A stretch of 64,000 bases of DNA from Klebsiella variicola (GTDB taxonomy: Bacteria; Pseudomonadota; Gammaproteobacteria; Enterobacterales; Enterobacteriaceae), in contig NZ_CP010523.2 of assembly GCF_000828055.2 (NCBI RefSeq), forward strand, positions 3,782,001 through 3,846,000, given 5' to 3'. Every line of letters starts with the position of its first letter. The first letter of the stretch is position 1. Below, one piece after another: positions 17,220-22,034 of this stretch. A model generated the notes under the pieces. It saw only the letters and a list, made by a program, of their open reading frames with translations, ran no database searches and was not told where the DNA came from. The position numbers were made by a program, and so were the translations under genes.

Positions 17220-18235
17220 CACCGCCAGGTCGCGCTGCGCTTGCCGGGCCTGCGGGGTGTGAGCCTGTGAGAGGATCCTGTAGTCCGGGTAAGGCGCCAG
17301 CCGCCACCCGGCAATACCAGGGGTACCGTGCCTGATATCTTGCCCGGCGGCGCTGCGCTTGGCAGGTCTAAACCCCAGCCGGACGGTTCCCTCTCCCTCC
17401 GGGAGAGGGACAGGGTGAGGGGAAGCACTGCGGTGTGGTTGTTTATATTATCTGTGGCTTCAGCGTAGTTTGCGCTCCCGGTTAGTCTTCTGCGTTATGT
17501 CATTCATGGCGCAGGGAGCGCACAGGGGGCGGCCAGTCGCCGCCGCCCCCTGTACCCCCGGGCTCCGGCCAGCAAAATCGCCACTTCGTGGTGCCTTCGA
17601 CTTATCCCTGCAGGCTTCGGGTCGGGCCGAGGCAGCGTCCCTGCAAAACACGGCCCTCAGCCCGCATCCATGCGGGCTGCCCCGACCTTCCGGGAACGTC
17701 TCAGCGATTTTGAGGCCGTCAGCACCGGCAGTTTCAGCAAGAAAGGTGAATAAATTAACGACAGGTCGCACGCACCGTAGGCCGGATAAGGCGCCAGCCG
17801 CCACCCGGCAACATCACGGGTACCGTGCCTGAAATCTCGCCCGGCGGCGCTGCGGCTTGCACGGGCCTACGGGGTGTGAGCCTGTGAGAGGCTCCTGTAG
17901 GCCGGGTCAGGCGCCAGCCGCCACCCGGCAGCACCACGGGTACCGTACCTGATGCCATCGCCCGGCGGCGCTGCGCTTGCACGGGCCTACGGGGTGTGAG
18001 CCTGTGAGAGGATCCTGTAGGCCGGGTAAGGCGCAGCCGCCACCCGGCAAAATCACGGGTACCGTGCCTGATGCCATCGCCCGGCGGCGCTGCGCTTGCA
18101 TGGGCCTACGGGGTGTGAGCCTGTGAGAGGATCCTGTAGGCCGGGTAAGGCGCAGCCGCCACCCGGCAAAATCACGGGTACCGTGCCTGATATATCGCCC
18201 GGCGGCGCTGCGCTTGCCGGGCGTTAGGAGATGCA
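17220..18235. repeat. REP/BIME array with tandem ~120-bp units
   Basis: This gene-free kilobase between ybhN and ybhL consists of alternating REP sequences. Units begin with (T/C)GTAGGCCGG at 17776, 17896, 18016 and 18135, giving periods of 120, 120 and 119 bp. A related unit is at 17279. Each unit has a forward REP (GCCGGGTAAGGCGCAGCCGC), a linker with ACGGGTACCGTGCCTGAT, and an inverted REP (CCCGGCGGCGCTGCGCTTGC), then GGGGTGTGAGCCTGTGAGAG. The array is interrupted at 17470-17772 by the 303-bp repeat. REPs commonly stabilise mRNA ends and can bind gyrase, Pol I or IHF. Confidence 0.85.
17470..17772 (+). repeat. 303-bp dispersed repeat, copy A
   Basis: This 303-bp block is about 90% identical by eye to the reverse complement of 35931-36233. 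Both copies lie inside REP clusters. It contains two strong hairpins: CAGGGGGCGG/CCGCCCCCTG (17523-17552) and CAGCCCGCAT/ATGCGGGCTG (17658-17679). Open frames of more than 110 codons run on both strands because the sequence is GC-rich. They lack good ribosome sites, and I do not call them genes. I do not recognise the family; it is not an ERIC element. Confidence 0.8.
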
Positions 18236-18254: not shown

Positions 18255-18959
18255 TTAGCGGCGGTTGCCCATAATACGCAGCAGCATCAGGAACAGGTTG
18301 ATAAAGTCCAGGTACAGCGTTAAGGCCCCGAGGATCGAGTATTTACGCAGCGTAGCGCTGTCGCGGGTATCAATCTGCTCGCCGATGTTTTTCAGCTTCT
18401 GGGTGTCATACGCCGTCAGGCCGACAAACAGCACCACCCCAATGTAGGTCACCGCCCACATCAGCGCCTCGCTCTTCAGCCACAGGTTGACCAGCGATGC
18501 CAGCACGATGCCAATCAGCCCCATAAACAGCATGCTGCCGAAGCCGCTCAGATCGCGCTTCGTGGTGTAACCATACAAGCTCATCGCCCCGAACATCCCG
18601 CCGGTGACCACAAAGGTGCTGGCGATCGATGAGTAGGTATAGGCGATAAAAATGCTCGACAGCGTCAGCCCGGTCAGCGCCGAGTAGAGCATAAACAGCG
18701 TGGTGGCCATCCCGGCGCTCAGTCGCTGCACCATTCCCGACAGCACAAACACCAGCGCCAGCTGGGCAATAATCAGCCCAAAGAAAGTGATTTTGCTCGA
18801 AAAGACGAACATCATCACCGCCGGGGTATTCGCCGCAAACCACGCGATAAACGCCGTCAGCAGCAGGCCAACCGTCATCCAGCCGTATACCTGCGCCATG
18901 TAAGTCTGCAGGCCGGTACGGCCCTGCACGATTGAATCGGAACGCGGATATCTGTCCAT
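18255..18959 (-). CDS. ybhL: Bax inhibitor-1 family membrane protein YbhL
   Basis: This 234-residue protein has seven predicted membrane helices and belongs to the BI-1/YccA family. Family features are the N-terminal RTGLQTYMAQVYGWM segment and the C-terminal DTQKLK followed by LYLDFINLFLMLLRIMG. Family members conduct Ca2+ or H+ through acidic residues near the C-terminus, and D-x(n)-D positions are present here. The length equals E. coli YbhL. It is monocistronic, with its stop codon just beyond the REP array and a 45-bp gap to moaE upstream. Confidence 0.94.
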   Translation of the reverse strand: MDRYPRSDSIVQGRTGLQTYMAQVYGWMTVGLLLTAFIAWFAANTPAVMMFVFSSKITFFGLIIAQLALVFVLSGMVQRLSAGMATTLFMLYSALTGLTLSSIFIAYTYSSIASTFVVTGGMFGAMSLYGYTTKRDLSGFGSMLFMGLIGIVLASLVNLWLKSEALMWAVTYIGVVLFVGLTAYDTQKLKNIGEQIDTRDSATLRKYSILGALTLYLDFINLFLMLLRIMGNRR

Positions 18960-19004: not shown

Positions 19005-19457
19005 CTACCAGCGCTCTGCCGCCTGACGATCGCTGTCGCGGGCGTCGACCCAGCGTTCGCCTTCCGGCGTCGCCTCACGCTTCCAGAACGGCGCGCGGGT
19101 TTTCAGGTAGTCCATAATAAACTCGCCGGCGGCGAAGGCGCTGCCGCGGTGGGCGCTGGTGACGCCGACAAACACAATCTCTTCCCCCGGCCACATTTCG
19201 CCGATGCGGTGGATAACCGTCACCCGGCCCAGCGGCCAGCGCTCGCGCGCCAGGTTGACAATTTCCGCCAGTGATTTCTCGGTCATCCCCGGATAGTGCT
19301 CGAGGGTCAGCGCTTTTACGCTGTCGCCAAGATTGTGATTGCGCACTTTACCGGTGAAGGTAACCACCGCACCGTCTTCATCGCGCTCGGCCAGCCACGG
19401 ATACTCATCGCCGACGCTAAAGCGTGCCGGGCTAACCACGATACGAGTTTGCGTCAT
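19005..19457 (-). CDS. moaE: Molybdopterin synthase catalytic subunit MoaE
   Basis: This 150-residue large subunit inserts two sulfurs into cyclic pyranopterin monophosphate to make molybdopterin, using thiocarboxylated MoaD. Family segments are visible: VVTFTGKVRNHN, LTLEHYPGMTEKSL, VTVIHRIGEMWPGEEIVFVGVTSAHR and PFWKREATPEGERWVDARD, which carries the catalytic lysines. It lies 1 bp after moaD and is last in moaABCDE. It should be starved of substrate because moaA is broken. Confidence 0.95.
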   Translation of the reverse strand: MTQTRIVVSPARFSVGDEYPWLAERDEDGAVVTFTGKVRNHNLGDSVKALTLEHYPGMTEKSLAEIVNLARERWPLGRVTVIHRIGEMWPGEEIVFVGVTSAHRGSAFAAGEFIMDYLKTRAPFWKREATPEGERWVDARDSDRQAAERW

Positions 19458-19458
19458 C

Positions 19459-19707
19459 TTAGCCTCCGGTCACCGGCGGGAAGAACGCCACTTCGTCGCC
19501 GCTGGCGACCGGATGGTCAAACGCGGTCAGCGTCTGGTTGACTGCCGCCAGCAGCTTGCCCTCTTCCAGGGCCAGCGCCCAGCGGTCGCCGCGCGCGGCA
19601 AGCTGCTGGCGCACGGCCTCGACGGTTGCCAGGTCGCTGGCGTCGAGTGTCAGGGCATCGGTGCCGACCAGTTCGCGCACCTGGGCGAAAAACAGAACCT
19701 TAATCAT
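19459..19707 (-). CDS. moaD: Molybdopterin synthase sulfur-carrier subunit MoaD
   Basis: This 82-residue ubiquitin-fold sulfur carrier ends in the required PPVTGG, whose C-terminal Gly is adenylated by MoeB and thiocarboxylated. The ATG at 19707 gives [15 protein letters not shown], the family N-terminus; a longer open frame upstream belongs to the moaC shadow. The gene start overlaps the end of moaC by 8 bp. Confidence 0.95.
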
Positions 19708-20188
19708 GGCGTTCGTCCACCTTAAAATCGCCGGACTTGCCGCCGCTTTTCGCCAGCAGGCGCAGCGGGCCAATGACCATATCTTTTTGCACCGCCTTGC
19801 ACATGTCGTAGATGGTCAGCGCGGCAACGGAGGCGGCGGTCAATGCTTCCATCTCAACGCCGGTTTTACCGGTCAGACGGCAAAGTGACTCAATGCGCAC
19901 CCGGTTATGCTCCGGCTGCGCCTGCAGATTGACTTCCACTTTGCTCAGCATCAGCGGATGACACAGCGGGATCAGCTCCCAGGTACGTTTTGCCGCCTGG
20001 ATCCCGGCGATACGCGCGGTGGCGAACACATCGCCTTTATGGTGGCTGCCGTCGATAATCATCGCCAGCGTCGCCGCCTGCATTTCGACATAAGCCTCGG
20101 CGCGCGCTTCGCGCACCGTTTCCGCTTTGCCGGAGACATCCACCATATGGGCTTCGCCCGCGGCGTTAATATGGGTCAGTTGTGACAT
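19700..20188 (-). CDS. moaC: Cyclic pyranopterin monophosphate synthase MoaC
   Basis: This 162-residue enzyme converts the MoaA product, 3',8-cyclo-7,8-dihydro-GTP, to cyclic pyranopterin monophosphate. Conserved stretches are [74 protein letters not shown] and a C-terminal KSGG. It works as a hexamer in E. coli. It is third in the operon. The reading frame is intact, but its substrate depends on MoaA. Confidence 0.95.
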
Positions 20189-20191
20189 AGA

Positions 20192-20704
20192 TTATTTCTT
20201 CAGGTGAGGAATGAAGTTACACGGACGGGTGCGAGCATCCAGCTGCGGGGCAATGATGTTGTCCCACGCCGTGCGGCAGGCTTTGGTCGAGCCCGGCATG
20301 GCAAAAATCAGCGTGCGGTTGGCGACGCCGGCCACGGCCCGGGACTGCAGCGTCGAGGTGCCGATCTCTTCGAACGACAGCATACGGAACACTTCGCCAA
20401 AGCCTTCGACCTCACGGTCAAACAGCGGCAGCAGCGCTTCCGGCGCCTGGTCACCCTCGGTGAACCCGGTCCCGCCGGTGATCAGCACCACCTGCACGTC
20501 ATCGCTGGCGATCCACGCCGACACCTGGGCGCGGATGGCGTAGCGGTTTTCTTTCACAATCGCCTTATCGACGACATGGTGTCCCGCCTCCTGCGCCGCC
20601 TCGCGCAGCCAGTGGCCGGAGGTATCATCCTCTTCGCCACGGCGGCTGGAAACAGTAAGAATAGCAATACGGGTCGGAATAAACTCAGCGCTAGCCTGGC
20701 TCAT
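20192..20704 (-). CDS. moaB: Molybdenum cofactor biosynthesis protein MoaB
   Basis: This 170-residue MogA/MoaB-family protein has the molybdopterin-binding motif region LITGGTGFTEGDQAPEAL and a GSTKAC segment near the C-terminus. In E. coli it is dispensable, and MogA carries out molybdopterin adenylylation. It sits between moaA and moaC in the standard moaABCDE order, 3 bp upstream of moaC. Confidence 0.95.
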   Translation of the reverse strand: MSQASAEFIPTRIAILTVSSRRGEEDDTSGHWLREAAQEAGHHVVDKAIVKENRYAIRAQVSAWIASDDVQVVLITGGTGFTEGDQAPEALLPLFDREVEGFGEVFRMLSFEEIGTSTLQSRAVAGVANRTLIFAMPGSTKACRTAWDNIIAPQLDARTRPCNFIPHLKK

Positions 20705-20727: not shown

Positions 20728-21865
20728 TTAACCGCCAATATAGGACAGGTTCTGCGTAATACCGGTGTTGCCCTGATGCAGGAAATGGGTCTGCTTTTTA
20801 TGGGTCAAGGCTTCGGCTATCCGCGCTTCCAGCTCGGCCTGTTGCTCGTCCTCAGCCATCAGGTCGCGCAGGTCGACGCCGCCTTCGCCAAACAGACACA
20901 GGTGCAGTTTGCCAACGGATGAGACGCGCAGACGGTTGCAGGTGGCGCAGAAATCTTTTTCATACGGCATGATGAGGCCGATTTCACCGGCGTAATCCGG
21001 GTGACAAAAGACCTGCGCCGGGCCATCGCTGCGCTGGCGGATCTGGTGGATCCAGCCGCGGCGCAGCAGCTCGTCGCGCAGCACCATGCCGGAAAGATGG
21101 TGACGGCGGAACAGATCGCTGCCCTCTCCGGTTTCCATCAGCTCAATAAAACGCAGCTGAATACGACGGGGTTGGATCCACGCGAGAAAGGTATCGAGCT
21201 GGTGATGATTAACATCACGCATCAGCACGGTATTGACCTTCACCTTGTCAAAGCCCGCGGCGAAAGCAGCATCAATGCCGTCCATCACCTGGTGGAACTT
21301 GTCCTGGCCGGTGATGGCATGAAATTGACGGGCGTCGAGGCTATCAACGCTGATGATTAACATCACGCATCAGCACGGTATTGACCTTCACCTTGTCAAA
21401 GCCCGCGGCGAAAGCAGCATCAATGCCGTCCATCACCTGGTGGAACTTGTCCTGGCCGGTGATGGCATGAAATTGACGGGCGTCGAGGCTATCAACGCTG
21501 ACGTTAATCGCCGTCAGCCCGGCATCGCGCCAGCGTTCGACATCGCGCGCCAGGCGGTAACCGTTGGTGGTAACCGCAATCTGACGGATCGCCGGGTTTT
21601 CACGCACCGCGGCAATGATTTCGGTGAAGTCGCGACGCAGAGAGGGTTCCCCACCGGTGAGGCGAACTTTTTCGGTGCCCAGCGCGGAGAAAGCGCGCGT
21701 GACGCGGCGCACTTCGTCTACGCTGAGAAAGCCGTTGTTATTGACGGCGCCGGGTTTGTAGCCGTCCGGCAGGCAGTAGGTGCAACGGAAGTTGCACACA
21801 TCGGTAATCGACAGACGCAGGTAAAAAAACTTACGCGCGAATGCATCGGTAAGCTGTGAGGCCAT
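20728..21865 (-). pseudogene. moaA: GTP 3',8-cyclase MoaA, broken by a 148-bp tandem duplication
   Basis: MoaA is the radical-SAM enzyme that opens molybdenum cofactor synthesis from GTP. The ATG at 21865 starts [13 protein letters not shown] and the 4Fe-4S motif CNFRCTYC follows. The frame ends after 173 residues at 21344, because 148 bp (not a multiple of 3) are duplicated. The remainder continues in another frame to 20728, with the second cluster motif CATCNRLRV and the terminal GG intact. The total is 1138 bp. Subtracting one 148-bp unit gives 990 bp, exactly 329 codons plus stop, the E. coli length. Neither fragment has both clusters, so no activity is expected. Confidence 0.93.
21203..21498. 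repeat. Perfect 148-bp tandem direct repeat inside moaA
   Basis: Unit 1 (21203-21350) and unit 2 (21351-21498) are identical at every base. A 3-bp TGA microhomology marks the unit start and the base after unit 2 (21203, 21351, 21499), which fits replication slippage. Complete identity points to a very recent event or an assembly error. Confidence 0.95.
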
Positions 21866-21867
21866 AT

Positions 21868-21982
21868 ACACCTTTCCAAATACGGGAGGCGCGGTCATTT
21901 CTTCCCACGCCCTGGCGACACCCGGAGGGGTCGCGGCCAAACCGCCATATCTTTTGACACAGGCGAAGAGGCTAGAGTGTTA
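21868..21982 (-). ncRNA. Molybdenum cofactor (Moco) riboswitch in the moaA leader
   Basis: On the minus strand the leader keeps the landmarks of the E. coli moaA Moco RNA in order: ACTCTAGCCTCT, GGTTTGGCCGCGAC, GTCGCCAGGGCG, GGAAGAAATGAC, CGCCTCCCGTAT and TGGAAAGGTGTA just before the ATG. In E. coli it represses moaA translation when Moco is present. With moaA broken it should stay in the ON state. Confidence 0.88.
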
Positions 21983-22034
21983 ACAGGTTATGCCGATAGT
22001 AGCGCGTTACGGACGGTTTCGCCATTTGCGATTT

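Follow-up and report, generated by a model that had tools for sequence, protein, structure and literature searches.

The moaA locus

The gene considered here, moaA, lies in a 64,000-nucleotide stretch of Klebsiella variicola DNA (the window) that is part of a single contig of 5,521,203 bases. It is read from the minus strand, beginning at an ATG at 21865 and ending with a TAA at 20730-20728, and it is interrupted by a tandem duplication. The features of the locus, in window coordinates, are:

21853..21991, minus strand: Moco riboswitch, full length, upstream of moaA (Rfam RF01055, 97.5 bits, model positions 1-135 of 135)
20728..21865, minus strand: moaA (GTP 3',8-cyclase), interrupted; the TIGR02666 profile matches both halves
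21344..21865, minus strand: N-terminal frame of moaA, 173 aa, with the radical-SAM domain (PF04055) and the cluster motif CxxxCxxC (profile positions 1-171 of 336)
20728..21366, minus strand: C-terminal frame of moaA, 212 aa, with the Mob_synth_C domain (PF06463; profile positions 119-336 of 336)
21203..21350: 148-bp unit, first copy on the plus strand and second in gene order (script identity and TRF)
21351..21498: 148-bp unit, second copy on the plus strand and first in gene order (script identity and TRF)
21499..21501: TGA common to the start of each unit, the microhomology (script identity)
21202..21218: inverted repeat with 6-bp arms around a 5-base loop, at the left breakpoint
21497..21518: inverted repeat with 7-bp arms around an 8-base loop, at the right breakpoint
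20192..20704, minus strand: moaB, open frame, 170 aa (named by position and by an E. coli match that has moaB here)
19005..20188, minus strand: moaC, moaD and moaE, open frames, each above an NCBIfam cut-off

The Moco riboswitch upstream and moaB to moaE downstream identify the locus as moaA, and E. coli shows the same order, with the riboswitch preceding moaA and moaB coming after it.

A preliminary description of this DNA reported two identical 148-bp units that break the reading frame after 173 residues, and both observations hold. A script comparison found the units at 21203-21350 and 21351-21498 to be identical, with exact identity continuing for 3 bp (TGA) on the right side and not at all on the left, and the TRF row for 21203-21501 gives 100% matches. 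The interrupted gene spans 1138 bp, and by arithmetic its excess length over relatives of 329 aa, or over the 990-bp moaA of E. coli, is one unit. As 148 is 3 x 49 + 1 and no multiple of 3, the frame changes within moaA. The N-terminal frame runs from the ATG at 21865 to a TGA stop at 21346-21344, and its CxxxCxxC is what we take to be the radical-SAM cluster motif. The C-terminal frame is open after a TGA at 21372, has a possible start at GTG 21366, continues to the normal end of the gene at 20730-20728 and repeats positions 119-171 of the N-terminal frame on the TIGR02666 profile, which has a length of 336. The two frames score 222.9 and 190.9 bits, below the cut-off of 284.05, so that neither is recognised as a one-protein MoaA. 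The frame break would thus leave the cell with a 173-residue N-terminal fragment and an out-of-frame C-terminal fragment, neither of which is expected to be active.

In 464,000 bases of the source genome, made up of the window and 20 stretches of 20 kb from the same genome, our script detected no perfect tandem duplication with a period of 40 to 1,499 bp other than the moaA repeat; the script leaves out imperfect arrays such as the one at 17777-18222. No perfect tandem repeat in the same range of periods was found in 513,105 bases fetched from 80 relatives. It follows that the moaA repeat is not a product of chance.

moaA in related genomes

The genus search covered 20 genomes, the source genome among them. 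In all 19 others, moaA aligns as two colinear matching pieces with one unit common to both, which means that the gene is single-copy in these congeners. Among the named relatives (the best 80 of 506, which partly overlap with the 19 congeners), 75 encode a moaA frame of 329 aa, the length that the preliminary description obtained by removing one unit. Three of the others deviate in length: L063 has 328 aa, L078 has 335 aa with an altered C-terminal end, and L045 has 196 aa, being cut by a contig end. The closest of these named relatives is K. pneumoniae ATCC 13883, with 98% protein identity over the N-terminal fragment, and G013 in the genus search has 94-95% DNA identity. The remaining two relatives, L033 (Leclercia adecarboxylata NCTC13032) and L097 (Kluyvera YDC799), have broken moaA frames of 215 and 247 aa; neither contains a perfect tandem repeat, and the breaks may be due to sequencing errors.

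Our survey of the family covered 295 genomes and found matches at E <= 1e-40 in 191, with 187 above the profile cut-off and four only below it. One of the four is the source genome (G000). The other three were considered as further cases of a tandem-duplicated moaA and set aside, as they are unlike it: G122 has moaA in two pieces with no repeated profile region, G212 has pieces on different contigs with one at a contig end, and G046 is 49% complete and has moaA in several pieces. The 104 family genomes that lack a moaA match include, among the 20 listed, 17 of no more than 1.4 Mb and three of 2.0-2.4 Mb. Of the complete E. coli genomes, 5426 in all, 5374 have no less than 80% of moaA at a single place, a count that would also include a duplicated copy. 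When 60 rows spread down the ranking of these 5374 were inspected, 59 showed one piece over 990 bp and one was cut at the record end. The counts in relatives, family and E. coli show that moaA is normally kept, and nothing like the 148-bp lesion was seen elsewhere among the genomes compared.

Two further observations came from the family survey. G122 (L138, L140), which is rated 100% complete, has two adjacent moaA frames separated near profile positions 107-110 by what is a small frame break. G152 has two moaA matches, both above the cut-off.

Molybdoenzymes and the predicted effect on the cell

The molybdopterin oxidoreductase family search of the genome returned 12 places (L099 to L110), and a search for MsrP-type enzymes returned two more:

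L099: formate dehydrogenase with one in-frame TGA (NCBIfam)
L107 and L108: FDH-N type formate dehydrogenases with one in-frame TGA each (NCBIfam)
L102: a further formate dehydrogenase alpha (NCBIfam)
L104: NarG (NCBIfam)
L101: DmsA (NCBIfam)
L105: YnfE (NCBIfam)
L100: TorA/BisC-type S/N-oxide reductase, above the BisC-family cut-off
L106: TorA/BisC-type S/N-oxide reductase, below the BisC-family cut-off
L103: 898 aa with a NirB-like tail; best match formate dehydrogenase alpha (427 bits), then NasC and NasA (~360 bits), all under the NCBIfam cut-offs shown; we take it to be a nas-type nitrate reductase
L109: YdeP/FdhF-family protein (NCBIfam)
L110: NuoG (given as a fragment), which shares the fold but is not known to be a Moco enzyme
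L111: MsrP
L112: a second, weak Pfam match in the MsrP-type search, with no NCBIfam match

The matched stretches of these genes contain no stop besides the three TGA codons, and the in-frame TGA of such formate dehydrogenases is read as selenocysteine. At least ten molybdoenzyme genes are open, and enzymes of the kinds that the preliminary description expected to be inactivated are therefore present with open frames. A general decay of molybdenum genes is ruled out by these open genes. NifH is also present, above its cut-off. The riboswitch, moaBCDE and the molybdoenzyme genes are all still open, so that the loss of moaA looks recent.

A profile search of the whole genome found no TIGR02666 match above the cut-off and hence no second moaA. 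Three weaker radical-SAM matches were rejected as candidates, being PqqE, NifB and the pyruvate-formate-lyase activase PflA. MoaA makes the first intermediate of Moco. Loss of moaA function is likely; a cell lacking MoaA would make no cyclic pyranopterin monophosphate, and its Moco-dependent enzymes would be inactive. With no second moaA found, Moco is expected to be absent and the nitrate reductases, formate dehydrogenases, S- and N-oxide reductases and MsrP to be inactive, while nitrogenase, which uses FeMo-co, should be spared. The riboswitch would then leave the moa operon on. In Salmonella, moaA loss has been used as a chlorate-resistance selection (PMC3386194). The loss of molybdopterin put forward in the preliminary description can accordingly be regarded as a sound prediction. 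Narrow searches of the open literature found no report of the presumed source strain's nitrate phenotype or of a moaA defect.

The case resembles the chlorate-resistant moaA mutants of enteric bacteria (PMC3386194) in the loss of moaA function and in the expected loss of all Moco enzymes. Those mutants were selected in the laboratory, however; for the present allele there is no known selection, and its lesion is a tandem duplication.

Origin of the duplication

The locus combines exact adjacent copies, a frame shift and a single copy of the unit in relatives, as a null allele formed by tandem duplication would. Each breakpoint sits in an arm of an inverted repeat, and the two inverted repeats are two of four such places in moaA (stems of at least 6, loops of 3-10). 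With stems of at least 6, and with the loop limit set between 8 and 15, two random sites would both fall in inverted repeats with a probability of 0.0018-0.0085, a post hoc statistic with a stem threshold picked after looking; allowing stems from 5 upwards raises it to 0.013-0.034, and requiring 7-bp stems disqualifies the left site. The fold energies are unremarkable: of random stretches taken from the window, 8-15% fold no worse than the breakpoint sites. In a comparison by eye of 14 of 21 loci from relatives (L009, L011, L012, L013, L014, L016 and L017, which have the other orientation, were omitted), 6-bp arms are preserved in 12 of 14 for the right repeat and in 3 of 14 for the left, which is complete only in K. 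pneumoniae twice (L008 and L019, the same genome) and in L010. Overall, the inverted repeats at the breakpoints lend modest support to replication slippage.

The preliminary description had also favoured slippage, on the grounds of a TGA shared by the joints. The shared TGA is real, but as microhomology it is weak evidence, since 3 bp or more are expected in 6% of random pairs (P = 0.06). Gapped similarity between the sequences that follow the two breakpoints is not significant either, as 19% of random pairs are as good. In the mechanism that we propose, the nascent strand would have slipped back during replication from one TGA site to another 148 bp away, both of them within arms of small inverted repeats, so that the segment was copied twice, giving a recent, single loss-of-function mutation in the sequenced clone. 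The repeat, the two frames, the lack of a second moaA, the open partner genes and the single-copy relatives are observed; we infer slippage, loss of activity, recency and reversibility, and we judge it quite likely that the allele is such a recent single knock-out of moaA by a slippage-made tandem duplication in the sequenced clone. The gene is an ordinary one, probably knocked out by a mutation of a known kind. The microhomology-mediated tandem duplications reported from fission yeast are alike in having short shared bases at the joint and in being reversible in principle; they differ in that they come from a eukaryote and reportedly rest on population-level evidence, whereas ours comes from a single assembly.

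Alternative explanations

A concern about any perfect tandem copy is that it can be an assembly error, and such an error would look identical in the assembled sequence. We take the source genome to be probably that of the K. variicola type strain DSM 15968 (F2R9, ATCC BAA-830; CP010523). CP010523 is tied to the K. variicola type strain in PMC6142883, PMC5495804 and PMC11656808. For strain F2R9 an independent Nanopore-Illumina assembly with public reads has been deposited (CP072130, 5,519,584 bp; PMC8248881), and this assembly of what is presumably the same strain is 1,619 bp shorter, a difference with many possible sources. That moaA is normally kept, scoring above the cut-off in 187 of the 191 family genomes with a match and being present in 5374 of 5426 E. 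coli, also speaks for a strain with one unit and an intact gene, the duplication having arisen in the assembly or in the library. On the other hand, no second perfect tandem repeat exists in 464 kb of the same assembly, including 400 kb sampled outside the window, which gives no sign of a tendency to tandem errors. The breakpoints at inverted repeats and the shared TGA suit a replication event, which slippage of a polymerase in vitro could match. We regard an artefact as rather unlikely. A different objection, which would leave the allele real and the enzyme working, is that the overlapping fragments are both translated and assemble into an active MoaA. Jointly they cover the entire TIGR02666 profile, overlapping over positions 119-171, and GTG 21366 and ATG 21363 are situated 20 and 17 bases ahead of the stop of the first frame, so that re-initiation is possible; an internal GTG at 21228 has a predicted ribosome-binding energy of -6.0 kcal/mol, better than the -4.5 of the moaA start. 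However, predicted binding is poor at the two starts that would give the long fragment (-2.2 and +0.6), a start at 21228 leaves out most of the doubled part, and the break falls inside the radical-SAM domain; we regard a functional split enzyme as very improbable. No slip motif for programmed frameshifting was recognised at the joint by eye.

Exact tandem repeats are unstable, and a collapse of the 148-bp copies to one by recombination or slippage in culture is plausible in principle. The preliminary description went further and saw in the repeat a contingency switch, by which gain and loss of a unit would turn moaA off and on. Waite et al. (2001, 2003) reportedly described spontaneous duplications in pneumococcal capsule genes (the type 3 locus, cap8E and tts). 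Phase variation of capsule genes through such duplications (PMC4022640, which cites these reports and deals with serotype 8 wchA) speaks in favour of a switch, as does the instability of exact tandem repeats. There, likewise, an internal duplication inactivates an open reading frame, and the titles of the cited reports speak of phase variation. In the pneumococcal case, however, recurrence and reversion are reportedly part of the claim, whereas here we have one genome and see no recurrence, and the gene hit serves a surface structure in pneumococcus and the synthesis of a cofactor here. A switch would need recurrence and a raised forward rate. We found a duplicated moaA in none of 19 congeners, none of 80 relatives (partly the same genomes, and all of other species) and none of the 60 listed E. 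coli rows, the microhomology is weak, and in the one-unit state there is no long repeat from which the forward step could start, so that its rate should differ greatly from that of the reverse step. The switch is in our view unsupported and very improbable, and nothing shows that the bacterium uses a reversal. We likewise give very little credence to the idea that the segment between the inverted repeats is a duplication hotspot through which the lineage switches its Moco supply off and back on with some regularity; if it were true, one reversible mutation would silence at least ten respiratory and assimilatory enzymes and spare nitrogenase.

If the recent knock-out that we favour is real, and if this genome serves as the species reference, the reference carries a null moaA, and metabolic models and annotations derived from it would be wrong to predict respiration of nitrate, its assimilation and formate-dehydrogenase activity. 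A real allele would also give a clear example from nature of many enzymes being silenced through one cofactor gene by a tandem duplication that is potentially reversible. If it is an artefact, the record should be corrected.

Downstream of moaE lies a 119-bp tandem array of 3.8 copies with 93% matches (17777-18222), adjoining a 234-aa frame at 18255-18959. A repeated stretch near 17253 is found again 737 bases on, within this array, which by eye looks like an intergenic repeat element.
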